From Rubrivivax sp. (GTDB lineage: Bacteria; Pseudomonadota; Gammaproteobacteria; Burkholderiales; Burkholderiaceae_C), in NCBI GenBank assembly GCA_016788525.1, contig JAEUPD010000240.1, positions 1 to 44,417 on the forward strand: 44,417 nucleotides of DNA, written 5' to 3'. Of the stretch, positions 6,428-36,970 are shown in pieces. The notes below the pieces were generated by a model that was given only the letters and a program-made list of their open reading frames with translations, did not search any database and was not told where the DNA came from. Made by a program: the position numbers and the translations under genes. The first letter of the stretch is position 1. Each line of letters opens with the position of its first letter.

Positions 6428-6495
6428 AGGCGCTTCGGCGCACACTTGCCTCCACGGTCGCAGTCCACGGCCCGCCGGTTCCGCCTCGCCAAACG

Positions 6496-6519
6496 CCAGC
6501 GCCAGCGCCAGCGCCAGCC
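6496..6519 (+). repeat. Hexanucleotide repeat just upstream of the tpsA ribosome site
   Basis: GCCAGC is repeated four times without interruption, immediately 5' of the GGGAGA ribosome-binding site of the TpsA gene. It lies in the gap between the tpsB stop and the tpsA start. A change in copy number would alter leader length but no reading frame. Confidence 0.7.
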
Positions 6520-6531
6520 AGGGAGATCCTC

Positions 6532-16984: not shown

Positions 16985-17157
16985 GGGGGTCTCCTCTTGG
17001 GGTTGTGATCAACGAACGCGGCAGCCGCGCCAGCCGTCGCCGCGCCGGAATCGTCGCACGAAGGGATCGGGCCTTCGCCAACCGCAAGGCTGGGGTCGCG
17101 GTGCCTGGGCACGCGCCGGCGGCCGGTGCCGCAGCGGCCGGTAGCATCGCCCCGACC

Positions 17158-19620: not shown

Positions 19621-20924
19621 GGGAGCCGTCACCCCAGTACCTGACCGATGGTGCGGCGGCTTCCGCACCTACTGGCTGGGTAAGCACGGGGATTGGTCAA
19701 CTCGGTGCCGTGGTGACGGGAAGCACACCGTCAACTGCCAATCCCGCCAACTACGGTGACGACTTCCCTTTCGTTGGCCCGGGCGACCTGAGCTACGGGA
19801 AGTGGGTTGCTCGAACTGAGAAGAGCCTCTCCATCACCGGCTTCGCCCGCGCGCGGCCACTCCCTCCAGGCGCAGTACTTTTCGTGTGCATCGGATCGAC
19901 GATCGGCAAGTGCGCTGTTGCGGCAACCCGGCTGGCAACCAATCAGCAGATCAATGCCATCGTGCCGTCGACAGAGTTTGTCGGCGAGTTCGTGTACTAC
20001 GCGGTGGCCGCTGTGGCCTCGCGGGTCCGCGCGTTGGCTGGGGAGCAGGCGGTTCCGATCGTCAACAAGGGGCAGTTCGCATCGACGACGATCGTGGTGC
20101 CGAAGGATCGGGGTGAGCAGGAAGAGATTGCACGCACTCTGAGCGACGCCGACGCACTCATCGAATCCCTGGAGCAACTCCTCGCCAAGAAGCGCCAGCT
20201 CAAGCAAGGCGCCATGCAGGAACTGCTCACCGGCAAGAACCGGCTGCCGGGGTTCGGCGGTGCTTGGACCACGCGCACGCTCGGTGAGATGTTCGCCTTC
20301 AGCGGCGGCCTTTCGGCGTCCCGCGAGCAGCTTAGCGCAGAGGGCATCGCGTACCTGCACTATGGCGACATTCATCTCGGCACGAGCACGCTGCTCGACC
20401 TTGACGCCCAGCACGCGTCGGTGCCGAAGCTCGACGTGCCCGCCTCCGAGGTGCCACGCAAGGCGTGGCTCGATGATGGCGATGTGGTGTTCGTCGATGC
20501 TTCCGAGGATGACGAGGGCACGTCGAAGCACGTGGTCGTTCGCAACGTTCTCGCGCGCCCCTTCGTCGCCGGCCTGCACACGATCGTGGCCAAGGCGAAG
20601 GGCGCCGACCTCGACAAGGAGTTCAGGCGCTACTGCTTTCAGTCGGCAGCCGTGAAGGCTCAGTTCAAGTTCTTCGCCGTGGGCACCAAGGTCTCCGGGG
20701 TCAGCAAGGGCAACATCGGCAAGATCACGCTTGCCTTTCCGTCGATCGAAGAGCAGTCCGCCATCGCCACCGTCCTCTCCGCCCTCGACACCGAACTCGA
20801 AGCCCTCGAGGCGCGCCTCGCCAAGGCCCGCGCGCTGAAGCAGGGCATGGCGCAGGCGCTGCTCACCGGCCGCATCCGTCTGGCGCCTTTTGGCGAGCAG
20901 CCTTCAGCCGCGCCGCCCGGCTGA
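19617..20924 (+). CDS. hsdS: Type I restriction-modification system, specificity subunit HsdS
   Basis: 435 residues from a GTG that overlaps the hsdM stop by four bases (GTGA); a GTG at 19611 is also possible. It has two target-recognition domains separated by conserved helical spacers. TRD1 starts at GWVSTGIGQLGAV and is followed by the spacer LIESLEQLLAKKRQLKQGAM. TRD2 starts at TRTLGEMFAFSGG and is followed by the spacer ELEALEARLAKARALKQGMA. The repeated LLTG(K/R) ends of the two halves show the usual internal duplication. HsdS reads a bipartite DNA site and holds two HsdM subunits. The target sequence cannot be predicted here. Confidence 0.92.
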   Translation: MREPSPQYLTDGAAASAPTGWVSTGIGQLGAVVTGSTPSTANPANYGDDFPFVGPGDLSYGKWVARTEKSLSITGFARARPLPPGAVLFVCIGSTIGKCAVAATRLATNQQINAIVPSTEFVGEFVYYAVAAVASRVRALAGEQAVPIVNKGQFASTTIVVPKDRGEQEEIARTLSDADALIESLEQLLAKKRQLKQGAMQELLTGKNRLPGFGGAWTTRTLGEMFAFSGGLSASREQLSAEGIAYLHYGDIHLGTSTLLDLDAQHASVPKLDVPASEVPRKAWLDDGDVVFVDASEDDEGTSKHVVVRNVLARPFVAGLHTIVAKAKGADLDKEFRRYCFQSAAVKAQFKFFAVGTKVSGVSKGNIGKITLAFPSIEEQSAIATVLSALDTELEALEARLAKARALKQGMAQALLTGRIRLAPFGEQPSAAPPG

Positions 20925-20952
20925 TCGCACCCGGCATCCGACGCGCAGCGCG

Positions 20953-21191
20953 GCAAAGGGCGGCGCGGGCAGGGCGTGGCGCTTAGCTGCGGCGGTCGGG
21001 CCCTGGGGGCCCGACTCCCCTGCGCTGCTCAGGCTCCTGGCCCGCGAACAACTCGCTTCACTCGCTGCGCTCGTTGCGCTCAAACAGTGTTCGCGAGTCA
21101 GAGGTGGATGCGCGCGAGTACGCGCGCGGCCAGGAGCCTTGCGCTGCTCGGCGCCGCAGATGCGCGCCACGCCCTGCCCGCACCGCCCTTT
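20953..21191 (-). repeat. Large nested palindrome, copy 1 (palA type)
   Basis: The outer arms 20953-20982 and 21162-21191 are 30 bp with one mismatch. An inner stem pairs 21032-21042 with 21126-21136 (11 bp, perfect). A further CGCGAACA/TGTTCGCG-type stem encloses the core, and a local hairpin with TCGGGCCC arms sits at 20996-21014. Read on the minus strand, the loops match copies 2 and 3, including GAGCAGCGCA on both sides of the inner stem and the core ACGAGCGCAGCGAGTGAAGC. Confidence 0.88.
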
Positions 21192-21194
21192 GCG

Positions 21195-21230
21195 GAACCG
21201 GGGTCTGTTCTCGATGGAACACAAACCCCG
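21195..21230. repeat. Linker hairpin between the two palindromes
   Basis: ACCGGGGT at 21195-21202 pairs with 21223-21230, with an additional TGTTC/GAACA inner stem. A hairpin of different sequence sits at the equivalent place in the 36.6-kb locus. Confidence 0.75.
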
Positions 21231-21233
21231 GTG

Positions 21234-21477
21234 CCGGCAAGGCCGCGGGCGGGAGCCCGGCGGGGCGCACATGCGGCGGCGAGCAGCACAGGCCTGGGGT
21301 CGGCGCGCGTACTCGCGCGCTTCGTAAACTGACTCGCGAACACTGTCTGAGCGAAACGAGCGCAGCGAGTGAAGCGAGTTGTTCGCGCGACCCCAGGCCG
21401 AGCAGCGCAGCGGAGTCGGGCCCCCCGGGGCCCGACCGCCGCATATGAGCCCCGCCGGGCTCCCGCCCGCGGCCTTG
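21234..21477 (+). repeat. Large nested palindrome, copy 2 (palB type)
   Basis: The outer arms 21234-21264 and 21447-21477 are a perfect 31-bp inverted repeat. An inner 12-bp perfect stem pairs 21289-21300 with 21386-21397 and differs in sequence from the equivalent stem of copies 1 and 3. A GTACTC mini-hairpin lies in the left half, and a local TCGGGCCCC hairpin at 21414-21433. The loop sequences agree with the other copies. Confidence 0.9.
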
Positions 21478-21547
21478 CCCGCCACGACCGCCGAGGGAGC
21501 CGCGGAGGGCCATCCGAGACGAGGCCGTACAGATCGCTACGCCGGCG

Positions 21548-21645
21548 ATTGCAGATATTGACCGAGGATCAGTTACTCAAGGTACTGTCAATAAAGGACT
21601 TTTTGACGTACATTGCAGATGTTCCGGATGCACGATGCAGATGAT
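21548..21645 (+). promoter_or_regulatory. Probable promoter/operator region of the Fic gene
   Basis: This stretch is AT-richer than its surroundings. ATTGCAGATATT at 21548 and ATTGCAGATGTT at 21612 are near-identical, and a third variant GATGCAGATGAT lies at 21634, close to the start codon. A TTGACC (21558-21563) could be a -35, but no good -10 follows. The spaced direct repeats could be operator sites. Confidence 0.3.
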
Positions 21646-21653
21646 TGCGCCCC

Positions 21654-22886
21654 ATGTCTGAGCCACCTCGGTTCGTCCACCATGAGCTGCGGCTGCTGAA
21701 CCCGTCGTTCAGCTCGCCGCTGCTGGACGTGCTCACCGAGCTGGAGTACCTGCGCCGGCTGCAGATGCGCGGCACCACGCCGCTGCCTGTGTTCCTGCAA
21801 CTCAAGCGCGTGTTCCATCTGCTGGAGAGCCTGGCCTCGGCGCGCATCGAGGGCAATCACACCACGCTTGCGGAGGTCGTGGAGGCCGCGGCGGCCCCGG
21901 TCGCCGCGGCCCGTGCCGAGCGCGGCACGCCGGATGCCGCCGCCCGGGCGGAGGCACTGCGCGAAATCCAGAACATCGAAGCCGCCATGCGCGAGGTTGA
22001 AGCAGCCGTACCGCCCGCAGCGCCGATCACCGAGCACTTGCTGCGCAGCCTGCACGCTCTCACCGTGAAGGGGCTCGTGCGGGAGGGCGACCGCACGCCG
22101 GGCGCCTGGCGCAGCGGGCAGGTACAGATCGCCCAGGCCGAGCACCTGCCGCCCGAAGCAGTGCAGGTGCCCAGCTACATGACCGAGCTGGTGGCCTTCA
22201 TCAACCGGCCCGACCCGCCCAAGTACGACCTGATGAAGGTGGCGCTGGCGCACCACCGTTTCGCGTGGGTGCACCCGTTCGGCAACGGCAACGGGCGGGT
22301 CGTGCGGCTGCTCACCTACGCGCTCCTGCTGAAGTACGGCTTCCAGGTGAGCATGAACGACAGCAACCTGGGAGACTTCGGCCGGCTGCTGAACCCGGCC
22401 GCGGTGTTCTGCGCCGACCGCGCGCGCTACTACGCCATGCTGGCCGAGGCCGACCGCGGCACCGAAGAGGGCCTGGAAGCCTGGTGCACCTACGTGCTCT
22501 CGGGCGTGTTGGAAGAGATGAAGAAACTCGACCGCCTGGCCGACCACGCGCACCTGCAGGCGCACGTGCTGCTGCCCGCCGTGGCGCATGCGCGCGAGCG
22601 GCAGCATGTCACCGCGCAAGAGGCGGCCGTACTCACCACGACGGTGAAGACCGGCGTCGTGAAGGCGGGCGACCTCGTCGGCGCGATGGCCGGCCTCAGC
22701 GCCACGCAGCGCACATACCAGGTGCGCAAGCTGGTCGACGCCGGGCTACTGCAGCCGATCTCCCCGGGGTCGCGGCAATACTGCATCGGCTTCTCGAACA
22801 ACCTGCTGCTGCGCGGCGTGGTGCGCGCGCTGACCGACGAGGGCTTCATCCCGCAGGCGCTGGCGGGAGTACCGCCGGCCGCCTGA
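21654..22886 (+). CDS. Fic family protein with C-terminal winged helix
   Basis: 410 residues. The Fic active-site motif is complete: [12 protein letters not shown] at 207-218, with catalytic His207. An N-terminal inhibitory helix motif SARIEGN (62-68) fits (S/T)xxxE(G/N), the class II arrangement, so activity is probably self-restrained by its glutamate. The C-terminal ~90 residues ([24 protein letters not shown] onward) resemble a winged-helix DNA-binding domain. Fic enzymes usually transfer AMP to hydroxyl groups of target proteins. Its position between hsdS and hsdR suggests a role tied to the restriction system, but its target is unknown. The ATG at 21654 was chosen over a TTG nine bases upstream. 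Confidence 0.9.
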
Positions 22887-22933
22887 CGAAGCCCTCACGC
22901 CTTCATGGGCACCAAGAACCGCGAGGGATCCAC

Positions 22934-23101
22934 ATGTCCGCCCGCTGCCGCCTGCCCCTGCGAAGGAAGGTCTCCGACAAGGCGTTGCTCGAAAGCTCCG
23001 CCGCATTGACTGAAACCTCGCTGGCCGACTTCTGCACGCACTTCGGCCTTGCTTCGCCCCAGGACGCGCGGATGACGCTGTACCTCCCGTTTTGGCGTTA
23101 G
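22934..23101 (+). CDS. Small hypothetical protein (55 residues)
   Basis: A short ORF with a good ribosome site (GAGGGA, five bases before the ATG) starts 47 bases after the Fic gene. The product begins MSARCRLPLRRKVSDKALL and ends YLPFWR, with a basic N-terminus and no recognised domain. It could be a Fic partner or a remnant of a degraded gene. It is not certain that it is translated. Confidence 0.35.
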   Translation: MSARCRLPLRRKVSDKALLESSAALTETSLADFCTHFGLASPQDARMTLYLPFWR

Positions 23102-23158
23102 GCCGGCCGGCAACTGCCGCAGTCGCAGGCCCGCACCCGCCCGCCAGGGAGACGCCAC

Positions 23159-23203
23159 GTGCCCGGAGCATCCACCGTCGGCCAGCCCGAGCGTGCCACG
23201 CAA
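23159..23203 (+). pseudogene. Duplicated 5' end of hsdR ahead of the Uma2 gene
   Basis: A GTG at 23159, preceded by AGGGAGA, opens a frame that encodes PGASTVGQPERATQ. This is almost the same as the N-terminus of HsdR (NSTVGQPERATQ at 23884). The DNA match is 32 bases with one mismatch (23171-23202 and 23890-23921). After it the similarity stops and the Uma2 gene begins. It looks like the original hsdR start, cut off by insertion of the Uma2 gene. Confidence 0.65.
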
Positions 23204-23249
23204 GACCTGGCTTGCACACCACCGGGAACGACGCATAGACTGAGGAATC

Positions 23250-23822
23250 ATGGCCCACGCACTGCAAGCGCCGCTCGAACTCGTCGATTACCTCGAACAC
23301 GAGGTGGCGAGCGATCGCCGGCACGAATACGTGGCCGGGCGGATCCACGCGATGACGGGAGGCTCGATGCGGCACAACCGCATCGCCGGCAACCTGTACG
23401 GCAAGCTGCTGCTGCGTCTGGCCGATGGTCCATGTCAGGCCTTCGTCAACGACATGAAACTGCATGTCGAGGCGGCGGATTCGGTCTATTACCCGGATGT
23501 GTTCGTCTGGTGCGGCAGCGCCACGGCCGGCGCCGCCTTGACCGCGAACGACGCCACTTTCATCGCCGAGGTCTCGAGCCCGAGCACGGTGGAGATCGAC
23601 CGCCGCGAGAAGCTCGCGGCCTACATGCGGCTGCCGAGCCTGCGCGCCTACGCCGTCGTGAGCCAGGACCAGCATCGCGTCGAGTTGCACCTGCGCGGCG
23701 ACGACGGCCGCTGGGCGTTGGCGGTGCTGACCGAGGCCGAGGACCTGCTGTCGACGCCCGGCTTGCCAGGGCCGGGCGTACGCTTGGCCGAGCTCTACGC
23801 CGGCACCGACGTGGCGTTCTGA
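23250..23822 (+). CDS. Uma2 family (DUF820) putative endonuclease
   Basis: 190 residues with the PD-(D/E)xK-type pattern of Uma2 proteins: ELVDYLEHEVASDRRHEYV at the N-terminus, VYYPDVFVWC (the Asp of the PD motif), IAEVSSPSTVEIDRREKLAA (the E-x-K/S part), and Y(M)RLPSLRAYAVV. The family is predicted to be a restriction-type nuclease, and its biological role is largely unproven. The ATG at 23250 has GAGGA shortly upstream. The gene sits between two copies of the hsdR 5' end, which suggests it was inserted into the hsd operon as a unit. A weak promoter-like TTGCAC...TAGACT lies at 23212-23241. Confidence 0.85.
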   Translation: MAHALQAPLELVDYLEHEVASDRRHEYVAGRIHAMTGGSMRHNRIAGNLYGKLLLRLADGPCQAFVNDMKLHVEAADSVYYPDVFVWCGSATAGAALTANDATFIAEVSSPSTVEIDRREKLAAYMRLPSLRAYAVVSQDQHRVELHLRGDDGRWALAVLTEAEDLLSTPGLPGPGVRLAELYAGTDVAF

Positions 23823-23883
23823 TCCCGTGCCGGCCCTCCCACTTCCGGCACGCGCGTGACATGCCGGGCCAGCGGGCGGCACG

Positions 23884-26800
23884 ATGAACTCCACCGTCGG
23901 CCAGCCCGAGCGCGCCACGCAGAAGCGCGTGCTGGCGCTGCTGTGCGATGAACTCGGCTGGCAGTACCTGGGCGACTGGAGCGAGCGCGCCGGCAACGCC
24001 GCCATCGAAGAAGGCCTGCTGACGGCGTGGCTCGCGAAGCGCGGCGTCAGCGCGCAGCAGGCGGCCGTGGTGCTGCACCGCCTGCGCACCGAGGCGGCCA
24101 ACCCCACGCGCACGCTTTACGGCAACAACCAGGCCGTCTACTCGCTGCTGCGCTACGGCGTGCCGGTGAAGCTGGCGGCCAGCGAAAACACCGAAACGGT
24201 GTGGCTCGTGGACTGGGACGACCCCAAGGCCAACCAGTGGGCGGTGGCAGAAGAGGTGACGCTGCAGGGCCCTCAACCGGGATCGTTCGAACGGCGGCCC
24301 GACGTGGTGCTCTACCTCAACGGCCTGGCCATCGGCGTGCTGGAGCTGAAGAACAGCCGCGTCAGCATCGGCGAGGGCATCCGTCAGCTGCTCAGCAACC
24401 AACTGCCGGAGTTCCACGCCGGCTTCTTCAGCACCGTGCAGCTCGTGCTCGCCGGCAACGACAGCGAAGGCCTGCGCTACGGCACCACGGGCACGCCGGA
24501 GAAGCTGTTCCTCGCCTGGAAGGAAGACGAGCACGACAACACCCGCTTCAAGCTCGACAAGTACCTGCTCAAGCTGTGCGCAAAGCCGCGGCTGCTGGAG
24601 TTGCTGCGCGACTTCGTGCTCTTCGACGGTGGCATCAAGAAGCTGCCTCGCGTGCACCAGTACTTCGGCATCAAGGCGGCGCAGGCCTTCGTGGCGCGGC
24701 GCGAGAGTGGCGTCATCTGGCACACACAAGGCAGCGGCAAGAGCCTCGTGATGGTGCTGCTGGCGCGCTGGATCCTCGAGCAGCACCCACATGCGCGCAT
24801 TGCCATCGTCACCGACCGCGACGAGCTGGACGGGCAGATCGAGCGCGTGTTCAACGAGGCCGGTACGCCGATGGCGCGCGCCGGCAGCGGGCGCGAGCTG
24901 ATGCGCCTGCTGGCGCAGCCGGCGCCGCGGCTGCTGTGCTCGCTGGTGCACAAGTTCGGCGTGCAGGGCCGAGGGCGGGATGACGCGGCGTTCGAGAACT
25001 TCCTCGCCGAGCTGCAGGGCCAGCCGGCAGCCGCCGCCGGTGAACTCTTCGTCTTCGTGGACGAATGCCACCGCACACAGAGCGGCCGCCTGCACCGCGT
25101 GATGAAGGCGCTGCTGCCGCAGGCGGTGTTCATCGGCTTCACGGGCACGCCGCTGTTGAAGCAGGACAAGGCGACGAGCTTGGAGGTGTTCGGCCGCTAC
25201 ATCCACACCTACAAGTTCGGCGAGGCCGTGGAAGACGCCGTGGTGCTGGACCTCGTCTACGAGGCGCGCGACATCGACCAGCACCTGGGCTCCAAGGCCA
25301 AGGTCGATGCGTGGTTCGAGGCCAAGACGAAGGCCCTGAACGACTGGCAGAAGGACGAGCTGAAGAAGCAGTGGGGCACGATGCAGCAGGTGCTCAGCTC
25401 GCGCCAGCGGATGGAGCGCGTGGTGCAGGACATCGTGTTCGACTTCGGCACCAAGCGGCGCCTGATGAGCGAGCGCGGCAACGCCATGCTCGTGGCCGGC
25501 AGCATCTATGAGGCCTGCAAGTACTTCGTGCTCTTCAATCGCGGCGACACGGGGTTCAAGGGCCGCTGCGCCATCGTCACTTCCTACAACCCGCAGGCCC
25601 AGCACGTGACGCTGGAAGAGACCGGCGCGCACAACGAGACCGACAAACAGTTCATCTTCAACACCTACACCGAGCTGCTGAAGGACGTGGTGCCGCGCCC
25701 CGGCCTCACGCGCACCGAGAGCTACGAAGCAGCCGCAAAGGAACGCTTCATCAAGGAGCCGGCGCAGATGAAGCTGCTGGTGGTGGTGGACAAGCTGCTC
25801 ACCGGCTTCGACGCGCCGCCTTGCACCTACCTCTACATCGACAAGGTGATGCAGGACCACGGCCTGTTCCAGGCCATCTGCCGCACCAACCGGCTCGACG
25901 GCGAGGACAAGGACTTCGGCTACATCGTCGACTACAAGCGCCTGCTCACGAAGGTGGAAAGGGCGATCGCGGTCTACACCTCCGAGCTGGACACCTCGGC
26001 CGGCGGCGCCAGCCCCGAGGTGTTGATGAAGGACCGCCTGGCCACCGGGCGCGAGAAGCTGGACGAGGCGCTGGAAGCGCTGCACCTGATCTGCGAGCCC
26101 GTGTTGCCACCGCGCGGCGAACTGGAGCACATCCACCACTTCTGTGGCAACACCGAAGTTGCCGGCGACCTGCGCGAACGCGAGCCGCAGCGCGCGGCGC
26201 TGTACAAGGCCGTGGCAGCGCTGCTGCGCGCCTACGCCAACATTGCCGACGAGCTGGAAGGGGCGGGCTATGGCGCCGCGGACCAGGCGCGCCTCCAGGA
26301 ACGCCTGAAGCACTACCTGAACGTGCGCGACATCGTGCGCCAGGCGAGCGGCGAGACGCTCGACCTCAAGGCCTACGAGGCCGACATGCGCCACCTCATC
26401 GACGCCTACATCCAGGCCGACGAGCCGCGGCGCATCTCGCCGTTCGAGGGCATCGGCCTGCTGGACCTCATCGTCAAGACCGGCATCGCCGAGGCCATCG
26501 CAGCGCGGCTGGGTTCGATGAAGAACAACCGGCAGGCGATCGCCGAGACGATCGAGAACAACGTGCGGCGCAAGATCGCCCGCGAGCAGCTCACCGACCC
26601 GGCGTACTTCGAGACGATGTCGGCGCTGCTGGAGGAGATCATCCAGGCCAGGCGCGACAAGGCCATCGAGTACGAGGAGTACCTGCGGCGCATGGCCGAC
26701 CTGGCCAAGCGCGTGACGCTCGGGCAAGCGGAGGACACGCCGCCGCAGCTGGACACGCCGGGCAGGCGGGCGCTGTACAACAACCTGAAGGCGCAGCCGC

Positions 26801-27021
26801 CGAAGGGGTTCAATTTCGCGGAGCCCGCGGCCGATGGCACAGAGCCGGCGGTGGCGCTGGCGCTGAGGCTTCACGCGGCCGTGACTGCCGCCCGGCCGAA
26901 CGCGTGGCGCGGGGTGCGCGCAAAGGAATTGGTTGTGCAGCGCGCGCTCTACGACGTGCTGCAGGACGTCGACGAGGTGGAGCGCTTCTTCCGCATCGTG
27001 CAGCAGCACCCCGAGTTCTGA
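23884..27021 (+). CDS. hsdR: Type I restriction-modification system, endonuclease/translocase subunit HsdR
   Basis: 1045 residues. The N-terminal nuclease domain carries the PD-(D/E)xK residues as RRPD140 and E154-L-K156. The superfamily 2 motor domain follows, with Walker A TQGSGKS (281-287), DECH box (393-396) and motif III FTGTP (419-423), then the helicase C half (DKLLTGFDAPPCTYLYIDK) and a helical C-terminal domain that binds the M2S core. The enzyme pulls DNA through the complex using ATP and cuts at a distance from unmethylated sites. All key residues are intact. The start ATG at 23884 has only a weak ribosome site, which fits the idea that the original leader was displaced. Confidence 0.94.
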   Translation: MNSTVGQPERATQKRVLALLCDELGWQYLGDWSERAGNAAIEEGLLTAWLAKRGVSAQQAAVVLHRLRTEAANPTRTLYGNNQAVYSLLRYGVPVKLAASENTETVWLVDWDDPKANQWAVAEEVTLQGPQPGSFERRPDVVLYLNGLAIGVLELKNSRVSIGEGIRQLLSNQLPEFHAGFFSTVQLVLAGNDSEGLRYGTTGTPEKLFLAWKEDEHDNTRFKLDKYLLKLCAKPRLLELLRDFVLFDGGIKKLPRVHQYFGIKAAQAFVARRESGVIWHTQGSGKSLVMVLLARWILEQHPHARIAIVTDRDELDGQIERVFNEAGTPMARAGSGRELMRLLAQPAPRLLCSLVHKFGVQGRGRDDAAFENFLAELQGQPAAAAGELFVFVDECHRTQSGRLHRVMKALLPQAVFIGFTGTPLLKQDKATSLEVFGRYIHTYKFGEAVEDAVVLDLVYEARDIDQHLGSKAKVDAWFEAKTKALNDWQKDELKKQWGTMQQVLSSRQRMERVVQDIVFDFGTKRRLMSERGNAMLVAGSIYEACKYFVLFNRGDTGFKGRCAIVTSYNPQAQHVTLEETGAHNETDKQFIFNTYTELLKDVVPRPGLTRTESYEAAAKERFIKEPAQMKLLVVVDKLLTGFDAPPCTYLYIDKVMQDHGLFQAICRTNRLDGEDKDFGYIVDYKRLLTKVERAIAVYTSELDTSAGGASPEVLMKDRLATGREKLDEALEALHLICEPVLPPRGELEHIHHFCGNTEVAGDLREREPQRAALYKAVAALLRAYANIADELEGAGYGAADQARLQERLKHYLNVRDIVRQASGETLDLKAYEADMRHLIDAYIQADEPRRISPFEGIGLLDLIVKTGIAEAIAARLGSMKNNRQAIAETIENNVRRKIAREQLTDPAYFETMSALLEEIIQARRDKAIEYEEYLRRMADLAKRVTLGQAEDTPPQLDTPGRRALYNNLKAQPPKGFNFAEPAADGTEPAVALALRLHAAVTAARPNAWRGVRAKELVVQRALYDVLQDVDEVERFFRIVQQHPEF

Positions 27022-27023
27022 CG

Positions 27024-27740
27024 GTGGCCGAGACGTTGCAGCTGGGCGAGCTGGCCATCGAGCTGGTGCGCAAGGACATCCGGCAGGTGCACCTGAGCGT
27101 GCACCCGCCCGCGGGCCGCGTTCGCATTGCGGCGCCCGAGCGCATGCGGCTGGAGACGGTGCGCGTGTTCGCCATCGCGCAGCTCGGCTGGATCCGCACG
27201 CAGCAGCGGCGCATGCGCGCGCAGCCGCGCGAGCCGCGGCGCGAGTTGGTCGAGCGCGAGAGCCACTGGCTGTGGGGGCGAAGGTTGCTGCTGGAACTCA
27301 GCGAGGCCGAAGGGCCGATGCGCATGCAGGCCACGGCCGGGCGGCTGCGCATGCAGATGCGGCCCGGCAGCGGCCGCGATGCGCGGGAGGTGCTGCTCGA
27401 ACGCTGGTACCGCGATCAGGTGCGCGAGGTGGCGGCGCCCCTGATGGCGCACTGGTGCGGGCGCATGGGCGTGGAAGTGGCCCACCTGTTCGTGCAGCGC
27501 ATGAAGACGCGCTGGGGCAGCTGCTCGCCGGCAATGCACTCGGTGCGCCTGAATACTGAGTTGGCGAAGAAGCCGGTCGAGTGCCTGGAGTTCGTTCTCG
27601 TGCACGAGCTGGCCCACCTGATCGAACCCGGGCACGGCGAGCGGTTCACCGATCTGATGAATGCGCTGCTGCCGCCTTGGCGGCACAGGCGCGACAAGCT
27701 CAATCGCCTGCCGCTGCCGCACGCGGCCTGGAAGTTGTAG
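27024..27740 (+). CDS. YgjP-like/SprT-like zinc metallopeptidase (DUF45)
   Basis: 238 residues from a GTG two bases after the hsdR stop, so almost certainly co-translated with it. The zinc site is HELAH (194-198) plus His204 in EPGHGERF, and the family signature WGSCS (164-168) is present. Proteins of this family (M48/DUF45, YgjP) are very often encoded next to type I hsdR genes, though their role there is not established. It is predicted to be cytoplasmic, with no signal peptide. It is the last gene of the hsd operon and converges with ftsZ. Confidence 0.88.
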   Translation: MAETLQLGELAIELVRKDIRQVHLSVHPPAGRVRIAAPERMRLETVRVFAIAQLGWIRTQQRRMRAQPREPRRELVERESHWLWGRRLLLELSEAEGPMRMQATAGRLRMQMRPGSGRDAREVLLERWYRDQVREVAAPLMAHWCGRMGVEVAHLFVQRMKTRWGSCSPAMHSVRLNTELAKKPVECLEFVLVHELAHLIEPGHGERFTDLMNALLPPWRHRRDKLNRLPLPHAAWKL

Positions 27741-27744
27741 GTCC

Positions 27745-27774
27745 CGCGCGGGCCGTGAGGCCGCGGCCCGCGCG
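27745..27774. terminator. Possible bidirectional terminator between the hsd operon and ftsZ
   Basis: The perfect 10-bp arms CGCGCGGGCC (27745-27754) and GGCCCGCGCG (27765-27774) lie in the 46-bp gap between two convergent operons. There is no U-run on either side, so intrinsic termination is uncertain. Confidence 0.45.
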
Positions 27775-27786
27775 CCCCGGCGAGAC

Positions 27787-29190
27787 TCAATCCGCCTGCT
27801 TCCTCAGAAACGCCGGAATCTCGATCTCCTCCATCCCGTTGCTGGCCAGCGCCTCCACCTTGGCCGCGGCCTGGTCGGCGCGCGGGCGGCGCCACACGCT
27901 CGGGGTGTTGAGGTGGTCGTAGGGCTGCTGCGGCGGCATCGCGCCTTGCGGCAGACCGGCGCCCTGCGGCGCGGTGGCAAAGCCCACCGGCGCGCCGGCA
28001 GCCGCCCCGCCGGGCATGCCACCCACGGCGTGGTTCAGCACCGGCAGTCCGTCGGTACCGTTGCGCAACTGGGTGTGCGCGGCGGTGGCCGCGTGGGGGT
28101 GCGCATGCACCGGCGTACCAGGCTGGCCCTGCGCGGCGCCGGGGCCGCCGTTCGGGCCCTGGCCAGGGTGCTGCGGCGCCTGACCGTGCACCACCGTCAG
28201 CCCCTGCGGCGCCGTCACGGGCGCGGCCTTGCGCGCGGCGCTGGAAAGACCCGTGGCGATGACCGTCACGCGCAGCTGGTCGCCCAGCTCGTCGTCGTAC
28301 GCGGTGCCGTAGATGACGTGCGCATCTTCCGAGGCGTAGCGGCGGATGGTGTTCATCACGTTGCGGCTCTCGGCGAGCTTGAAGTTGCTCTTCGACGCCG
28401 CAATCAGCACCAACACGCCGCGCGCGCCGCTCAAGTCGATGCCTTCCAGCAGCGGGCAGGCCACCGCCAGTTCGGCCGCCTTGGCGGCGCGGTCGGGGCC
28501 GCCGGCGTGCGCGGTGCCCATCATCGCCTTGCCCGGCTCGCTCATCACCGTCTTCACGTCTTCGAAGTCGACGTTGACGAGGCCCGGGATGTGGATGATG
28601 TCGCTGATGCCGCCCACCGCGTTGCGCAGCACGTCGTTGGCGTGCGCGAAGGCGTCTTCCTGCGTGACGTCGTCGCCCAGCACTTCCATCAGCTTCTCGT
28701 TGAGGATGACGATGAGGCTGTCGACGTTGGCTTCCAGCTCGGCCACGCCCTCGTTGGCCTGCTTGGCGCGCTTGCCGCCTTCGAACTCGAAGGGCTTGGT
28801 CACCACGCCGACGGTGAGGATGCCCATCTCGCGCGCGATGCGGGCGATGACGGGCGCCGCCCCGGTGCCCGTGCCGCCGCCCATGCCGGCGGTGATGAAC
28901 AGCATGTGGGCGCCGTCGATCACGCCGCGGATGCGGTCGGCCGCTTCCTCGGCCGCCGCGCGCCCCACGGCGGGCTTGCCGCCGGCCCCCAGGCCGTTGG
29001 CGCCCAGCTGCACCAGCGTGTTGGCGTTGCTGCGGTTGAGCGCCTGCGCGTCGGTGTTGGCGCAGATGAACTCCACGCCCGCGACACCGTGGTCGATCAT
29101 GTGCTCGACGGCGTTGCCGCCGCCGCCGCCGACACCGATCACCTTGATCTGGGTGCCTTGGCCGAAGTCGTCGATCATTTCGATGGGCAT
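27787..29190 (-). CDS. ftsZ: Cell division protein FtsZ
   Basis: 467 residues. The tubulin-like GTPase domain shows GVGGGGGNAV near the N-terminus, the GGGTGTG signature at 104-110, and the T7 loop region with NVDFEDVKTVM. The C-terminal peptide IEIPAFLR, which binds FtsA and other partners, is present. The linker between the core and the tail (from about LTVVHGQAPQHPG) is unusually long and rich in Gly, Pro, His and Gln, which makes the protein longer than the usual ~390. FtsZ polymerises with GTP into the division ring. The ATG at 29190 has AAGGAG seven bases upstream. The frame stays open to 29406 through a poly-Thr stretch. Confidence 0.95.
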   Translation of the reverse strand: MPIEMIDDFGQGTQIKVIGVGGGGGNAVEHMIDHGVAGVEFICANTDAQALNRSNANTLVQLGANGLGAGGKPAVGRAAAEEAADRIRGVIDGAHMLFITAGMGGGTGTGAAPVIARIAREMGILTVGVVTKPFEFEGGKRAKQANEGVAELEANVDSLIVILNEKLMEVLGDDVTQEDAFAHANDVLRNAVGGISDIIHIPGLVNVDFEDVKTVMSEPGKAMMGTAHAGGPDRAAKAAELAVACPLLEGIDLSGARGVLVLIAASKSNFKLAESRNVMNTIRRYASEDAHVIYGTAYDDELGDQLRVTVIATGLSSAARKAAPVTAPQGLTVVHGQAPQHPGQGPNGGPGAAQGQPGTPVHAHPHAATAAHTQLRNGTDGLPVLNHAVGGMPGGAAAGAPVGFATAPQGAGLPQGAMPPQQPYDHLNTPSVWRRPRADQAAAKVEALASNGMEEIEIPAFLRKQAD

Positions 29191-29271
29191 GGAGAACTCC
29201 TTGATTCGTTGCTTGGTTGCCAGTTGCCGTTGCTGTGGAAGAAGGGAATCGCCTGTCGTTCTGGTCTGAGC

Positions 29272-29324
29272 CGTCGTCGTTGTCGTTGTTGTCGTTGTCG
29301 TTGTTGTCGTTGTTGTCGTTGTCG
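29272..29324. repeat. GTT/GTC trinucleotide repeat between ftsA and ftsZ
   Basis: About seventeen consecutive GTC or GTT triplets lie in the 222-bp spacer. On the coding strand they are ACA/ACG/ACC-type codons in frame with ftsZ. The whole spacer is otherwise free of genes. Confidence 0.85.
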
Positions 29325-29412
29325 CGCTTCGTGCGTCGTCATCGCCTTGGTCGTCTCTGTGAACCCAACGTCGTGGTTGTCTTGTTCGTGTTGCTGGTGG
29401 TGTCACCCGGCT

Positions 29413-30657
29413 TCAGAAGTTGCCGAGAAACCAGTCCTTGGCGCGGCCGAGCACGTTCTTCACGCTGCCGGCCTGCGCCGCCGCCTTGTGCCCGCGCGCA
29501 CGCGCCAGGCGCGCCTCTTCGAGCAGCCCCATCACCGTGGCGCTGCGCGGGTTGGCCACCATGTCAAAGAGCGGCCCGCTGTAGGTGGGCGTGCCGCGCC
29601 GCACGGGCTTGAGGAAGATGTCTTCGCCCAGCTCCACCATGCCCGGCATCACCGCGCTGCCGCCGGTGAGCACGATGCCGCTGGAAAGCAGCTCTTCGTA
29701 GCCGCTCTCGCGGATGACCTGGTGCACGAGCGAGAAGATCTCCTCGATGCGCGGCTCGATCACGCCGGCCAGTGCCTGGCGGCTGAGCATCCTCGGGCCG
29801 CGGTCGCCCAGGCCGGGCACCTCCACCTGCTCGGCGGGGTCGGCGAGCAGCTGCTTGGCCACGCCATGCTCGAGCTTGATCTCCTCGGCGTCCTTGGTCG
29901 GCGTGCGCAGCGCCATCGCGATGTCGCTGGTGATCAGGTCGCCGGCGATCGGGATGACGGCCGTGTGGCGCACGCTGCCGTCGGTGTAGACCTGCACGTC
30001 GGTGGTGCCGGCGCCGATGTCGACTACCGCCACGCCCAGGCTCTTCTCGTCGTCGGTCAGCACCGCGGCGGCGCTGGCACTGGGGTTCAGCACGAGGCCG
30101 GCCACTTCCAGCCCGCAGCGGCGCACGCACTTCAAGATGTTCTCGGCCGCGCTGCCGGCGCCGGTGACGATGTGCACCCTCACCTCCAGCCGGCTACCGC
30201 TCATGCCGATCGGCTCCTTCACCTCGTGGCCGTCGATCACGAACTCCTGCGGCTCCACCAGCAGCAGGCGCTGGTCGTTGGGGATGTTGATGGCCTTGGC
30301 GGTTTCCACCACGCGCGCCACGTCGGCCGGCGACACCTCGCGGTTGTCGCGCACGATCACCATGCCGGTGGAGTTGATGCCGCGGATGTGGCTGCCGGTG
30401 ATGCCGGTGAAGACCGCGCCGATCTTGCACGCAGCCATCATCTCGGCCTCCTTCAGCGCCGCCTGGATGCTCTGCACGGTGGCCTCGATGTTGACGACCA
30501 CGCCGCGCTTCAGGCCGGAGGTGGGCGCCACGCCCATGCCGGCCAGGCGCAGCTCGCTGCCGCCCTCCACATTGGCCAGCACCTCGGCGGCAACCACCAT
30601 CACCTTGTGGGTGCCGATGTCCAGCCCGAAGACCATGTCCTTGTATTCCTTGGCCAT
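29413..30657 (-). CDS. ftsA: Cell division protein FtsA
   Basis: 414 residues of the actin-like ATPase fold: GLDIGTHKVMVV (phosphate 1), GIDV-like VAVVDIGAGTTDVQVY (phosphate 2), and GIVLTGGSAVMPG (adenosine motif). The C-terminus GRAKDWFLGNF is the amphipathic membrane-anchoring helix. FtsA tethers FtsZ filaments to the inner membrane and signals to FtsN and FtsQLB. The gene lies between ftsQ and ftsZ as in other proteobacterial dcw clusters, with 48 bases to ftsQ upstream. Confidence 0.95.
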   Translation of the reverse strand: MAKEYKDMVFGLDIGTHKVMVVAAEVLANVEGGSELRLAGMGVAPTSGLKRGVVVNIEATVQSIQAALKEAEMMAACKIGAVFTGITGSHIRGINSTGMVIVRDNREVSPADVARVVETAKAINIPNDQRLLLVEPQEFVIDGHEVKEPIGMSGSRLEVRVHIVTGAGSAAENILKCVRRCGLEVAGLVLNPSASAAAVLTDDEKSLGVAVVDIGAGTTDVQVYTDGSVRHTAVIPIAGDLITSDIAMALRTPTKDAEEIKLEHGVAKQLLADPAEQVEVPGLGDRGPRMLSRQALAGVIEPRIEEIFSLVHQVIRESGYEELLSSGIVLTGGSAVMPGMVELGEDIFLKPVRRGTPTYSGPLFDMVANPRSATVMGLLEEARLARARGHKAAAQAGSVKNVLGRAKDWFLGNF

Positions 30658-30705
30658 TGCTCTCTCGTCGCCTCGCCTCGCGTGTGCGGTCTCTCGTCGT
30701 TGCCT

Positions 30706-31572
30706 TCAGTTCGCGCGCGCGCCCTGCGGCGTGCCCGGCACGGTGCCCGGTACCCCTGCCGCGGGGCCGTTCGTGCCCACGCCGCGCAGCTTCAACGCAT
30801 AGCCCTCGGCATGCCGCAGGTCGGCATACACGAACGGCTGGCGGTACTTGGCGGTCATCGTGCCCACGGTGCGCAGGAAGCGCTCGGTGCGCTCGGCCAC
30901 TTCGGCCTCGGTGCCGCGGCCCAGCTCCACCACCACCCCCTTGCCCAGCTCGGCGCGCCACGAGCCGCGGCCCGACTGCGCCAGGTGCTGGATGCGCTGC
31001 CCACGCCCGGCGAAGGCCGGCTGCAGCCGTTTCCACAGCCCCAGCGCCTCGGCGGCGCGGCCTTCCGGGCCGGTGAACAGCGGCAGCGCCTCGTCCTCCA
31101 CGTCGGCCAGGTTGGCCTCGAACACTTCGCCGAAGGTGTTGACCAGTCGCGTGAAGCCGGTCTGGCTGCCCTCGTTGGCCTCCCACAGCGCCAGCACCTC
31201 GTGCTCCTCGACCTGCACCACCAGGCGGTCGGGCCACAGGCGGCGCACGACGGCCCGCCGCACCCACGGCACGCTTTCGAAGGCGCGGCGCGCCGCGTCG
31301 AGGTCGATGCTGAAGAAGTTGCCGGCCAGCTCGGGCAGCGCGTGCGTGCGCAGCGTGGGCAGCTGGTTGCGCGTAAGCTCGCCCTTCACTTCGATGCTGC
31401 GCAGGTTGAACATCGGCGCGCGCGTCAGCCACCACGCGCCCGCCACCAGCAGGCTGAGTGCCGCACCGGCGACGACCAGCGCCACCACGGCGTTCATCAG
31501 GCGCACGTCGCCCGGCAGCCGCGCCGGCGTGGCCGGCGGGTTGGGGGTGCGGGGGCGATTCAGGCGCGCCAT
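30706..31572 (-). CDS. ftsQ: Cell division protein FtsQ
   Basis: 288 residues with the expected plan. A short proline-rich cytoplasmic tail is followed by one membrane helix (about 24-48, ALSLLVAGAWWL), a POTRA domain beginning at MFNLRSIEVKGELTRNQ, and the FtsQ beta domain with VPWVRRAVVRRLWPDRLVVQVEEH. FtsQ recruits FtsL/FtsB and later divisome proteins. The tail is Gly/Pro-rich and likely disordered. Ten bases separate it from the ddl stop upstream. Confidence 0.93.
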   Translation of the reverse strand: MARLNRPRTPNPPATPARLPGDVRLMNAVVALVVAGAALSLLVAGAWWLTRAPMFNLRSIEVKGELTRNQLPTLRTHALPELAGNFFSIDLDAARRAFESVPWVRRAVVRRLWPDRLVVQVEEHEVLALWEANEGSQTGFTRLVNTFGEVFEANLADVEDEALPLFTGPEGRAAEALGLWKRLQPAFAGRGQRIQHLAQSGRGSWRAELGKGVVVELGRGTEAEVAERTERFLRTVGTMTAKYRQPFVYADLRHAEGYALKLRGVGTNGPAAGVPGTVPGTPQGARAN

Positions 31573-31582
31573 GTCGGCTTGC

Positions 31583-32601
31583 TCATGCGCCCGGCGGCGG
31601 CGCAGCGGATGCGGCCGGCGCAGCGGTACCGGCGCGCGTGCTGTCCAGCCGCGCCATGCGCAGGATCTCGAGGCACAGCGCCTCGTAGCCCAGGCCCGCG
31701 GCGCGCGCCGACATCGGCACCAGCGAGTGCCCCGTCATGCCCGGGCTGGTGTTCATCTCCAGCAGGAAGAAGCGACCGTCGCTGCGCCGCTGCATCAGGT
31801 CGGCGCGGCCCCAGCCGCGGCAGCCGAGCGCCCGGTAGGCGGCCAGCGTCAGCCGTTGCACCTCGGCTTCGTCTTCGGGCGGCAGGCCGCTCGGGCAGCG
31901 GTAGCCTGTCGCGTCGCTGAAGTACTTGTGCTCGTAGTCGTAGTTGCCGTCGGGCGCTTCGATGCGCACCACCGGCAGCGCGCGCGCCGCGGCGCCTTCG
32001 CCCAGCACCGGGCAGGTGAGCTCGGCGCCTTCGATGAACTCCTCGCACAGCACGTCGGCGTCGTAGCCCGCGGCCAGCGCCACCGCGTCCTGCATCTGCG
32101 AGTAGCCCAGCACCTTGGTCACGCCGATCGAGCTGCCCTCGCGCGGGGGCTTGACGATCAGCGGCAGGCCGAGCCCGTCGGGCACGGCGCGCAGGTCCTC
32201 GCGGCGCTGGTGGTCGGCATCCAGCCACGCCCAGCGCGGCGTGGGCAGGCCCTCGGCCTGCCACACCCGCTTGGTCATCACCTTGTCCAGCGCGATGGCG
32301 CTGGCCAGCACGCCGCTTCCGGTGTAGGGCAGGCCCAGCAGTTCCAGCGCGCCCTGCACGGTGCCGTCTTCGCCATGGCGGCCGTGCAGCGCGATGAAGA
32401 CCCGCGCGAAGCCCTCGCGCCTGAGCTCCGCCAGCTCGCGCTCGGCGGGGTCGAAGGCATGCGCGTCCACGCCCTGCGAGCGCAGCGCAGCGAGCACGCC
32501 GCCGCCGCTCATCAGCGACACCTCGCGCTCGGCACTGGTGCCGCCCATCAGCACGGCCACCTTGCCGAAGGCTTTCACGTCGAGAGCGGAGGCCGCCTGG
32601 T

Positions 32602-32605
<4 letters not shown>
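31583..32605 (-). CDS. ddl: D-alanine--D-alanine ligase
   Basis: 340 residues of the ATP-grasp family. [19 protein letters not shown] lies at the N-terminus, [13 protein letters not shown] follows, EGSSIGV forms the nucleotide loop, and [16 protein letters not shown] carries the metal ligands. It joins two D-alanines for the MurF reaction. The ATG overlaps the murC stop by four bases (ATGA), which explains why a much longer open frame appears in this reading frame. It has a short Ala/Pro-rich C-terminal extension. Confidence 0.95.
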
Positions 32606-33977
<1,372 letters not shown>

Positions 33978-33981
<4 letters not shown>

Positions 33982-35081
33982 GCCGCCCGCTCTTTCGCCA
34001 CCAGCCGCTCGATCTCGTCGGCCACACGCGCCGCGGCGTGAGGCCGGGCGGCCGCGCGCGCGCTGGTCGCCATCTCGACCAGCCTGCCGCGGTCCAGCGA
34101 GCGCAGCACGTCAGCCAGCCGCTGTGGCGTCAGCTCGGCCTGCGGCATGTGGATCGCCGCGCCCTGCGCCGCCAGCCACTTCGCGTTGTCGACCTGGTGC
34201 GACGTGGTGCTGACGATCAGCGGCACCAGCACCGCCGGCACGCCGGCCGCGCACAGCTCGCTCACCGTGATGGCGCCGGCGCGGCAGATCATCACGTCGC
34301 AGGCGGCCAGGCGCGACGGCATGTCGTCGATGAAGGGCACCAGCTCGGCATCGATGCCGGCGCGCTGGTAGTCGGCGCGCACGGCTTCGAGGTGCGCGGC
34401 GCCGGTCTGGTGCACGACCTGCGGGCGCGCGTCGCGCGGCATGGCCGCCAGCGCGGCCGGCAGCGTCTGGTTCAGCACCTGCGCGCCGAGACTGCCGCCG
34501 ACCACCAGCACGCGCAGCGGGCCGCTGCGGCCGGCACAGCGTTCGGCCGGCGGCGCGAGGGCTTCGATCTCCGCTCGCACGGGGTTGCCGGTGACGATGC
34601 CTCGGCGAGCCTTGCCGACAGCGTCGCCCTCGAAGCCGAAGGCCACCGTGTCAGCCAGCGGCAGCAGCGACTTGTTCGACAGCAGCAGCGCCGCGTCGGC
34701 GTTCACCAGCACCAGCGGCTTGTTCAGCAACGAGGCCATCAGCCCGCCGGGAAAGCAGACATAGCCGCCCATGCCCAGCACCGCGTCGGCGCCGCGGCGG
34801 CGCAGGATGGCGAGGCTGTCGGCCATCGCCTTGAGCAGGCGCAGGCCGCCGGTGAGGGTGTGCCACAGGCCCTTGCCGCGCAGCCCGCTGAAGGTGAGGC
34901 GGTCCATCGTGAAGCCGCCTTGCGGTTCACCGGGCACGAGGCGGTTTTCCATGCCGTGCGTGGTGCCGAGCCAGCTGACGGTCCAGCCGCGGCTTCGCAT
35001 CTCGCGCGCGACGGCGAGCCCGGGCATCACGTGCCCGCCGGTGCCCGCGGCCATCACCACGAGATGCGGCATCAGGAACAT
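33978..35081 (-). CDS. murG: UDP-N-acetylglucosamine--lipid I transferase MurG
   Basis: 367 residues of the GT28 family. The N-terminal loop [16 protein letters not shown] binds the lipid-linked acceptor, [12 protein letters not shown] is the second Gly-rich loop, and [23 protein letters not shown] binds UDP-GlcNAc. It makes lipid II at the inner face of the membrane. ATG 35081 was chosen; an ATG three codons later (35072, [10 protein letters not shown]) is equally good by family comparison. The 91 bases upstream to ftsW hold a hairpin repeat. Confidence 0.95.
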
Positions 35082-35094
35082 GCCCCCACGCTCC

Positions 35095-35155
35095 CTCCGG
35101 TCGCTGCCCCCCGAGGGGGCTCTTGCAGCGGCCCGGCAAAGCCGGATCCGCGCAA
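35095..35155. repeat. Short hairpin-rich intergenic repeat between ftsW and murG
   Basis: Two small hairpins are visible: GCCCCC/GGGGGC (35106-35111 with 35115-35120) and CCGGC/GCCGG (35133-35137 with 35141-35145). The wording resembles a short repeat that I recall as widespread between genes in Burkholderiales; that recollection was not checked. Confidence 0.5.
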
Positions 35156-35172
35156 GGCCCTTGGCTTGGTTC

Positions 35173-36477
35173 TCATGCCCGCCCTCCCCGCATCATCGAG
35201 CGCGACTCGGAATCGACACGCAGCACGATGGCCAGCGCCACCAGGTTCATGACGATGGCCGAACCGCCGTAGCTCATCAGCGGCAGCGTCAGCCCCTTGG
35301 TGGGCAACACGCCGAGGTTGACACCCATGTTGATGAAGGCCTGGAAGCCGAACCACACGCCGATGCCCTGCACCATGAGCCCGGCGAACACGCGGTCCAG
35401 CGACACCGCCTGGCGGCCGATGACGAAGATGCGCCGCGTGAGCCAGAAGAACAGCACGATGACGGTGGCCACGCCGACGAAGCCGAGTTCCTCGCCGATC
35501 ACCGCCAGCAGGAAGTCGGTGTGCGCCTCGGGCAGGTAGTGCAGCTTCTCGACACTGTCGCCCAGGCCCTGGCCGAAGATCTCTCCGCGGCCGAAGGCGA
35601 TGAGCGAGTGCGTCAGCTGGTAGGCCTTGCCTTGTGCGTAGGCCGGGTCCCACGGCTCGAGGTAGGCGAAGATGCGCTCACGCTTCTCGGGGCTCAAGGC
35701 GATGACCATCACGAAGGTGCCCACCAGCACCGCGCACGACAGCAGGAACATGCGGCCGTTGACACCGCCCAGGAACAGGATGCCCATCGAGATGACGGCC
35801 ACCACCATGAAGGCGCCCATGTCGGGCTGGCGCAGCAGCAGCGCGCCGGTGAAGCCGAGCGCCACCGCCATCGGCCACACGGCCTTGATGAAGTCCTCCT
35901 TGAGGTCCATCTTGCGCACCATGTAGCTGGCCGCGTACATGGCCATCGCGAGCTTGGCCAGTTCACTCGGCTGGAAGTTCATCAACCCCAGCGGAATCCA
36001 GCGCCGCGAGTTGTTCACCACCTTGCCGATGCCCGGGATGAGCACGAGCACGAGCAGCACGAGTGCCACGACGAAGACCCAGGGCGCTGCCTTCTCCCAG
36101 AACTTGTTGGGCAGCTGCAGCACGATGAGCGCGGCGACGAAGCCCACGCCGATGGCGACCAGCTGCCGCGCGAGGAAGTAGGTGGGCGTGTAGCCGCGGT
36201 ACTTGGGGCTGTCGGGCAGCGCGACGCTGGCCGAATAGACCATCACGACGCCCAGCGCGAGGAGGGCGATGATGACGGCGACCATCGCCTGGTCGAAGGC
36301 GAAGATGCGCAGCGGGCGGTCGCCACCGATATGCACCTGGTCGCGCACGGGCAGGGCTTTCGCGCTGGCGCTGGCCCAGGCGAAGCGGGTCTGGCTCAGC
36401 AGCTTGCCGATTGCGGCGAAGGGGGCGGCGAAAGGGGCGGCGAAGAGAGCGGCCATGTTGGCGAGCGGGCGCTTCAT
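35173..36477 (-). CDS. ftsW: Lipid II polymerase/divisome protein FtsW
   Basis: 434 residues of the SEDS family with about ten membrane helices. An N-terminal cytoplasmic tail of ~60 residues precedes [24 protein letters not shown]. Conserved SEDS segments are visible: [51 protein letters not shown], and [18 protein letters not shown]. FtsW makes septal glycan strands together with FtsI. The ATG at 36477 ([11 protein letters not shown]) is preferred. The open frame upstream runs into a palindromic repeat and is not coding. The gap to murD is ~490 bases, by far the largest inside this cluster. Confidence 0.95.
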
Positions 36478-36555
36478 GGGTGCGCTCTCGCAGTGGTGGC
36501 GCTGTGGCGCTGGACCGGTGCGCGGTTCCTTGCGGCGATCGGAGGTGGTGGCGGC

Positions 36556-36630
36556 AAAGGGCTGTGCGGGCTCGGTGCAGCGCTTGGCTGCGGCGCAGAT
36601 GCGCGCCGCACCGAGCCCGCACAGCCCTTT
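36556..36630. repeat. Short palindrome (palA type without the core)
   Basis: The arms 36556-36578 and 36608-36630 form a perfect 23-bp inverted repeat around a 29-base loop. The loop keeps the TGCGGCGCAGATGCGCG sequence seen next to the outer arms of copy 1 at 21 kb, but the large inner stem and core are missing. Confidence 0.85.
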
Positions 36631-36640
36631 GAGCAAACCG

Positions 36641-36661
36641 ACGAGGCGTTCGTCGCCTCGT
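36641..36661. repeat. Linker hairpin
   Basis: ACGAGGCG (36641-36648) and CGCCTCGT (36654-36661) form an 8-bp stem with a 5-base loop. It sits in the same place as the 21195-21230 hairpin in the other locus, with a different sequence. Confidence 0.75.
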
Positions 36662-36678
36662 ACTCCGCAGGTGGTGCC

Positions 36679-36925
36679 GGCAAGGCCGCGGGCGGGAGCC
36701 CGGCGTGGCGCACTTGCGGTGCCGAGCAGCGCAGGGCTTGTGGCCCGCGCGTGTACTCACGCGCCTCCACATCTGGCTCTGCGCGGGTGTCTGAGTGGCA
36801 CGAGCGCAGCGAGTGCAACGAGTTCCGCGCAGTGGGCCACAAGACCGAGCAGCGCAGGGCAGTCGGGCCCCCAGGGCCCGACCACCGCATATGCGCCCCG
36901 CCGGGCTCCCGCCCGCGGCCTTGCC
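36679..36925 (+). repeat. Large nested palindrome, copy 3 (palB type)
   Basis: The outer arms begin at 36679 and end at 36925 and are nearly the same as those of copy 2. The inner stem pairs 36737-36746 (CTTGTGGCCC) with 36834-36843 (GGGCCACAAG) and is unlike the equivalent stems of copies 1 and 2. The mini-hairpin has a T-A pair where the others have C-G, and the deep stem is CTGCGCGG/CCGCGCAG instead of CGCGAACA/TGTTCGCG. The loops are conserved. Confidence 0.9.
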
Positions 36926-36970
36926 CGCCACGACCGACGAAGGAATCCGAACGGCCGGCGTGCGGAGAGT

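Follow-up and report, generated by a model that had tools for sequence, protein, structure and literature searches.

Paired palindromes in the window

The stretch of DNA analyzed here (hereafter the window) covers 44,417 nucleotides (nt) of a Rubrivivax sp. contig (GenBank JAEUPD010000240.1) and carries two doublets of a palindromic, intergenic repeat (Table 1). Doublet 1 is embedded among type I restriction-modification genes (window 16975-27021), directly after hsdS, in the gene order hsdM, hsdS (ending at 20924), doublet, Fic-domain gene and hsdR, and doublet 2 is flanked by an ftsW gene and a murD gene. Both belong to a family of multi-copy doublets that some relatives carry and others lack, that keep their stems paired through compensated changes, and that tolerate stem mismatches in a strand-specific manner.

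A first-pass annotation made from the sequence alone had reported three copies of a nested palindrome of ~245 base pairs (bp). All three are real, and their ends had been placed within a few bases; what that annotation missed is a fourth, internally deleted copy, the organization in doublets, and the copy number (28 matches to a model of the repeat in the genome). A 10-letter end motif follows the right half of each doublet and has a counterpart to the left of doublet 2 (9 of 10 letters match by eye), and none by eye to the left of doublet 1, such that terminal repeats in the window amount to this motif on both sides of doublet 2.

Table 1. Coordinates and parts of the repeat copies (window positions, except for the last row, which gives positions in other loci).
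Feature	Position	Strand	Basis
Doublet 1, left half (outer stem type a)	20953..21193	-	sequence, fold
Doublet 1 spacer, 42 nt, a small hairpin in its own right	21194..21235	.	sequence
Doublet 1, right half (outer stem type b)	21236..21479	+	sequence, fold
CGCCACGACC, end motif after doublet 1 right half	21480..21489	+	by eye
CGCCACCACC (on the - strand), end motif left of doublet 2	36544..36553	-	by eye
Doublet 2, left half, internally deleted, outer stem (type a) remains	36555..36631	-	inverted pair I10
Doublet 2 spacer, contains a small hairpin	36632..36678	.	sequence
Doublet 2, right half (outer stem type b)	36679..36925	+	sequence, fold
CGCCACGACC, end motif right of doublet 2	36926..36935	+	by eye
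Extra hairpin CCGGACAC...GTGCC	L038:3514-3716, L040:4065-4253 (own genome); L295, L442 (genome G017)

Compensated change around fixed loops

Folding z-scores against shuffled sequences were -11.3, -13.6 and -12.3 for the first, second and third window copies, and for each of them none of 200 shuffles folded as well as the real copy. The core ACGAGCGCAGCGAGTG is the same in all three, and GAGCAGCGCA flanks stem 2 on both sides with a single change (GAGCAGCACA, 5' side of the second copy), while in stem 2, the deep stem and the mini-hairpin a change in one arm is matched by one in its partner. The earlier description of stems that co-vary around a fixed core and nearly identical unpaired parts therefore holds for the window.

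The same pattern was quantified on an alignment of 17 copies from the own genome (hybrid copy included, see below). Pairing is kept in 95.7% of 1292 cells, 45 of 76 base pairs have changed on both sides, and all four Watson-Crick pair types occur at columns 21/254. The covariation score reached 0.412, as compared with 0.140 (sd 0.009) in shuffles, none of which (0/500) scored as high, and it fell to at most 0.077 once partners were slid by 1-3 columns, so that compensated change exceeds chance. The first-pass annotation had named many genomic copies with uncompensated stem differences as evidence against it: copies are many and nearly all compensated, the one departure being a hybrid (G000 C219:858-1098) with arms of two types and broken, uncompensated stems, which could be a product of recombination or an assembly error. 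By eye, the own genome contains at least four outer-stem types (a to d), and in each doublet with two readable halves or a readable remnant, type a is joined to b or type c to d. Loops and junctions are kept across genera.

Strand asymmetry of stem mismatches

When a palindrome acts as a double strand, each G.T mismatch on one strand is an A.C mismatch on the other, and both are thus expected to be equally common. Mismatches were counted in the outer stems of 127 usable copies out of 157 (the 30 without a long stem being dropped), with an aligner that penalizes all mismatches alike. Next to 3473 Watson-Crick pairs, these stems contain 105 G.T vs. 16 A.C, 55 G.A vs. 12 T.C, and 17 G.G vs. 4 C.C mismatches, with G.T exceeding A.C in 68 copies and the reverse in 7. 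Counting each context once gives a G.T to A.C ratio of 80:16 (p ~2e-11; the copies are related to each other, and such p-values are guides only), and the excess recurs in left halves (28:5), right halves (38:6) and single halves (39:5). Stem 2, parsed in 129 of 231 sequences (~25 copies being present twice), behaves alike across distinct contexts (G.T 24 : A.C 2, G.A 18:2, G.G 10:3), as it does in a distant set (21 of 35 parsed; 4:0, 5:1 and 7:0, respectively). The 3' hairpin has too few mismatches for this test (G.T 2 and A.C 3 in 109 copies). Given that G.T far outnumbers A.C in both halves, our conclusion is that in each half the outward-reading strand is under selection for folding alone.

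The doublet as the repeated unit

Across genomes, the usual unit is a doublet of two divergent hairpin halves around a short spacer. This was assessed on a pooled set of 176 matches (97 of 117 and 63 of 80 from two scans, plus 16 from the own genome, with marginal, duplicate and cut-off rows excluded), 173 of which are distinct sequences. Among 53 neighbor relations, 48 were divergent (-,+), one was (+,-) and four were tandem. All 48 divergent pairs differ in sequence, 47 lie within 407 nt, and in 22 the model ends are 85-106 nt apart. Genome G296, a single contig, contains two single halves and six complete 520-nt doublets; with one of the six as query, the other five are 89-97% identical to it. 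In G017 the whole doublet is repeated as well, its second half being mostly a different hairpin module, of which one unit carries two.

The G017 units are bounded by a ~20-bp terminal inverted repeat that covaries too (CGGCCCG/CGGGCCG vs. CGGCAGG/CCTGCCG), and a search for the terminal-repeat pattern gave 148 matches in this genome vs. 100 in the control. In G296, CGGCCCGTTGCAGACATTCA was seen at eight places away from the doublets, among the matches listed, as if the terminal repeat might exist there on its own.

Two further hairpins were observed in members of the family. One (CCGGACAC...GTGCC around an ACAGTCC/GGACTGT stem) occupies the same place in the 3' half in copies from two genomes (Table 1) and looks like a smaller module or a mobile hairpin. 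The other, with CTTTCTTTTGGCGAAGCAAAAGAAAG-like arms, follows a + half in distant carriers (L344, L346, L348, L351, L122, L158 and others) and is absent from the window copies.

Distribution among genomes

The search of the own genome and its relatives that the first-pass annotation had suggested showed a widespread family. The model found 28 matches in the own genome, whose assembly (268 contigs, 73% complete) has several contigs terminating within copies; within the genus it was positive in 45 of 60 genomes, the own one included (strict filters, 43 candidates scored per genome). A phylum sample (six candidates scored per genome) was positive in 15 of 397 genomes and 11 of 224 genera, namely the own genome, seven others of the family, two of the order and five of the class. 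A pattern scan over named genomes added at least 116 loci, on 80 + 36 of which the model was then run. Model-matched carriers include Rubrivivax, Methylibium, Zoogloea, Aquabacterium, Quisquiliibacterium, Rhizobacter, Paucibacter and Silanimonas; records from Rhizobium, Actinomycetales and Eisenbacteria (L218, L220, L202) matched the pattern but not the model, and these matches are attributed to chance. A plasmid or phage origin was likewise set aside, the 527-nt doublet having no match at E 1e-5 in 72,556 plasmid and 50,697 phage records.

No named family had been recognized at first, and Rfam agreed, with no match above the gathering score in the window and, at E up to 1, a single chance match located outside the repeat in five other loci. 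Among the matches listed in a literature search that had most subscription journals outside its reach, none was a published description of this repeat.

Presence, absence and the search for a mobilizer

Of 30 murD-ftsW loci, three (G000, G058, G070) carry the element according to the model, and in the remaining 27 no match exceeds 17.1 bits (29 of the 30 murD-side junctions were read). Given the six whole doublets of G296 and this patchy occurrence among relatives, the doublet behaves as a mobile unit. At a second locus (C225), the doublet of G070 (L330, G070 C248) is flipped relative to the own genome (L037), as if inverted through its ends or re-inserted; G058 and G011 have a fused remnant there and G042 no element (G054 is broken by contig ends, and G050 and G052 are without a flanking match). 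Fused and internally deleted palindromes of this kind are traces of recombination acting on the copies.

RAYT genes were tried as candidate mobilizers and rejected. Within the genus, 9 of 18 genomes with the element have PF01797, as do 3 of 11 in which the model finds none (among these negatives, G018 and G024 show weak DNA matches to the element). Elsewhere it is present in 11 of 14 carriers (one below the cut-off) and in 10 of 10 genomes that lack the element. Around 32 RAYT-family loci of ~3 kb (14, plus 18 of 30) there was no convincing copy, the best element match reaching 20.0 bits (E 0.023, L286) and all others at most 16.7 bits. Nor was a parent transposon found by a terminal-repeat search in two genomes and by the spacing of repeat pairs in 30 loci, a search that did not extend to reading frames.

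A few wide doublets enclose genes. In L228:4796-8033 (G011 C21), the doublet is opened to 2.9 kb around an 818-amino-acid gene with SIR2-like and nSTAND NTPase domains, which has a weak ThsA-like PADLOC match and a GC content of 55% vs. 67-70% in the flanks. Others enclose a chemotaxis receptor (L227), an IS4/5-type transposase (L138), or an FAD-binding oxidase with a Crp-like regulator (L229). Such cargo is not a defining feature, since the gap is at most 407 nt in 47 of the 48 pooled pairs.

Weighing the explanations

Taken together, this is a widely spread and conserved family of paired intergenic repeats, best read as a mobile doublet with a branched single-strand fold that resembles REPINs (doublets of repetitive extragenic palindromic, or REP, sequences), a reading to which we give about an even chance. 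The element would be a non-autonomous, intergenic mobile unit of ~500-620 bp, made of two opposite hairpin modules around a short spacer, bounded by ~20-bp terminal inverted repeats in part of the copies (at least two genera), and moved in trans by a putative enzyme. The outward-reading strand of each module, probably as single-stranded DNA, would fold alone into a branched hairpin to be recognized by its shape and by the fixed letters in its loops and junctions; because of this mode of recognition, stems could drift through tolerated G.T, G.A and G.G steps provided that they re-pair.

A functional double-stranded cruciform, for instance a protein-binding or replication-pausing site, would explain the extreme palindromes with conserved loops and the position of most copies between genes, but both of its strands fold, and the 105 G.T vs. 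16 A.C mismatches thus make this part of the original proposal very improbable. The same asymmetry bears on the mutational alternative raised alongside it, in which the fold is not selected and the arms are homogenized by template switching or arm-to-arm conversion. The ~30-bp outer stems are indeed often perfect (21/127), and the fused or deleted palindromes are signs of recombination between copies or arms. However, strand-symmetric copying yields no G.T bias, 106 of the 127 outer stems contain mismatches, and loops and junctions are conserved across genera, and we accordingly give this alternative very little credence as well.

The more serious competitor is the other half of the original proposal, a structured RNA family that spread as a repeat, with each half transcribed either outward, starting in the spacer, or by read-through of outside transcription, and acting perhaps as a small RNA, or as an element of transcript end or stability. 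We regard this as possible, at a probability well short of even. Covariation around fixed loops is the classical sign of such RNAs, the strand asymmetry fits since G-U pairs are tolerated, and 78 of the 132 gene ends facing 66 units are 3' ends (called with a home-made frame caller). Yet both halves are constrained, on opposite strands around a ~40-nt spacer, an arrangement that would require two divergent promoters there, read-through puts one half in the wrong sense, and Rfam has no match. Loop types also lean toward single-stranded DNA: C(GNA)G triloops, known for their high stability in DNA, cap 33 of 64 distinct 3' hairpins vs. 4 of 180 control hairpins, and none of the 64 has a GNRA or UUCG loop. 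Computed with DNA energies, the + strand is the better folder in 102 of 126 copies, and with RNA energies in 89 of 126, and we would count for DNA that G.A and G.G are biased about as G.T is. From these sequence-based indications, single-stranded DNA would come out ahead of RNA as the folded molecule, though not far.

Several observations weigh against a REPIN-like, single-stranded DNA doublet. The G.A and G.G biases about equal the G.T bias, and the GNA loops of related copies are non-independent, the control hairpins having had a minimum stem of 8 vs. 6. Substitutions over six genomes are themselves uneven (C>T 68 vs. G>A 52, 1.5-fold per base; C>A 44 vs. G>T 13, 3-fold by count; C>G 48 vs. 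G>C 39); since stems are among the sites counted, this is no neutral control, and the surplus of C>A calls for caution. As the source of the G.T asymmetry, mutation bias was nevertheless rejected, the overall transition bias being much smaller. G433 has convergent pairs in four of five loci, a related terminal repeat is common to only three of the six G296 doublets, and the terminal-repeat pattern search in G296 gave no excess (75 matches vs. 123 in the control). No target-site duplication, a feature of miniature inverted-repeat transposable elements (MITEs) that not every MITE needs, was seen by eye at 22 units, no base-exact clean empty site was found, and neither was a mobilizing enzyme, RAYT genes not accompanying the element.

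If a REPIN-like doublet is nonetheless the right reading, mobile DNA of this kind would extend from small hairpins to ~245-nt branched folds under visible structural selection, and its mobilizing enzyme would be a new reader of nucleic-acid shape. It is tempting, and more doubtful, to go further and speculate about an undescribed, phylum-wide class of mobile elements with a branched single-stranded DNA substrate, interchangeable modules, an enzyme reading shape more than sequence, and occasional defense-like cargo of the SIR2-STAND type. The comparison of G.T with A.C in stems separates single-strand folding from double-stranded palindromes by sequence alone, and it comes with a warning for RNA surveys, as strong bacterial covariation may stem from single-stranded DNA elements.

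Other features of the window

Elsewhere in the window, the frame at 6007-11322 (+) encodes a long repetitive protein with direct repeats at 7990-10530, spaced by ~420 bp. The frame adjoining ftsA (27787-29406, -) opens with 17 threonine codons in the frame call, perhaps a microsatellite preceding the true start.

Comparison with known systems

REPINs have an inverted doublet as replicative unit, compensatory changes in their hairpins, and singlets or long palindromes as remnants (PMC3116915). The present family resembles REPINs and bacterial interspersed mosaic elements (BIMEs) in its inverted doublets, compensated hairpins, remnant singlets and intergenic position. The repeated unit is here too a short-spacer inverted doublet (48 of 53 relations divergent, and the six G296 doublets), with G433 as the exception. 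A further likeness may lie in strandedness: TnpA-REP is reported to bind single-stranded REP and not its complement (PMC8266576), and the mismatch asymmetry shows that one strand is constrained here. In contrast, each half is ~245 nt long with a branched fold, instead of a 20-40-nt REP hairpin, and copies per genome are far fewer. GTAG was not found within 20 nt of the 5' foot of the folded strand in any of 127 copies, CGTC occurs within 20 nt in 13 (5') and 12 (3') of them, which sets the family apart from CGTC-tagged REPs as well, and no RAYT gene is attached to the repeat. Lacking GTAG and an attached RAYT, the element would work like a REPIN without being one by definition.

Bacterial MITEs such as NEMIS, RUP and ERIC are non-coding and intergenic, 70-300 bp long, bounded by terminal inverted repeats, and able to fold as RNA or DNA (PMC3733652). 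The same paper mentions self-complementary terminal-inverted-repeat families in S. maltophilia, and the terminal-inverted-repeat families of RAYT-like genes described there may be kin. The present repeat is similarly non-coding and intergenic, with terminal inverted repeats clear in G017 and in three of six G296 doublets, and it differs from MITEs as sketched there in its two interchangeable hairpin modules per unit and its greater length, as well as in the target duplication and parent transposon, neither of which was seen.

The hairpins of origins of transfer (oriT) are a case in which one strand folds and is read mainly by shape. The attC sites of integrons likewise have one folded strand that is recognized mainly by shape (PMC8266576). 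The present doublet would resemble both in this respect.

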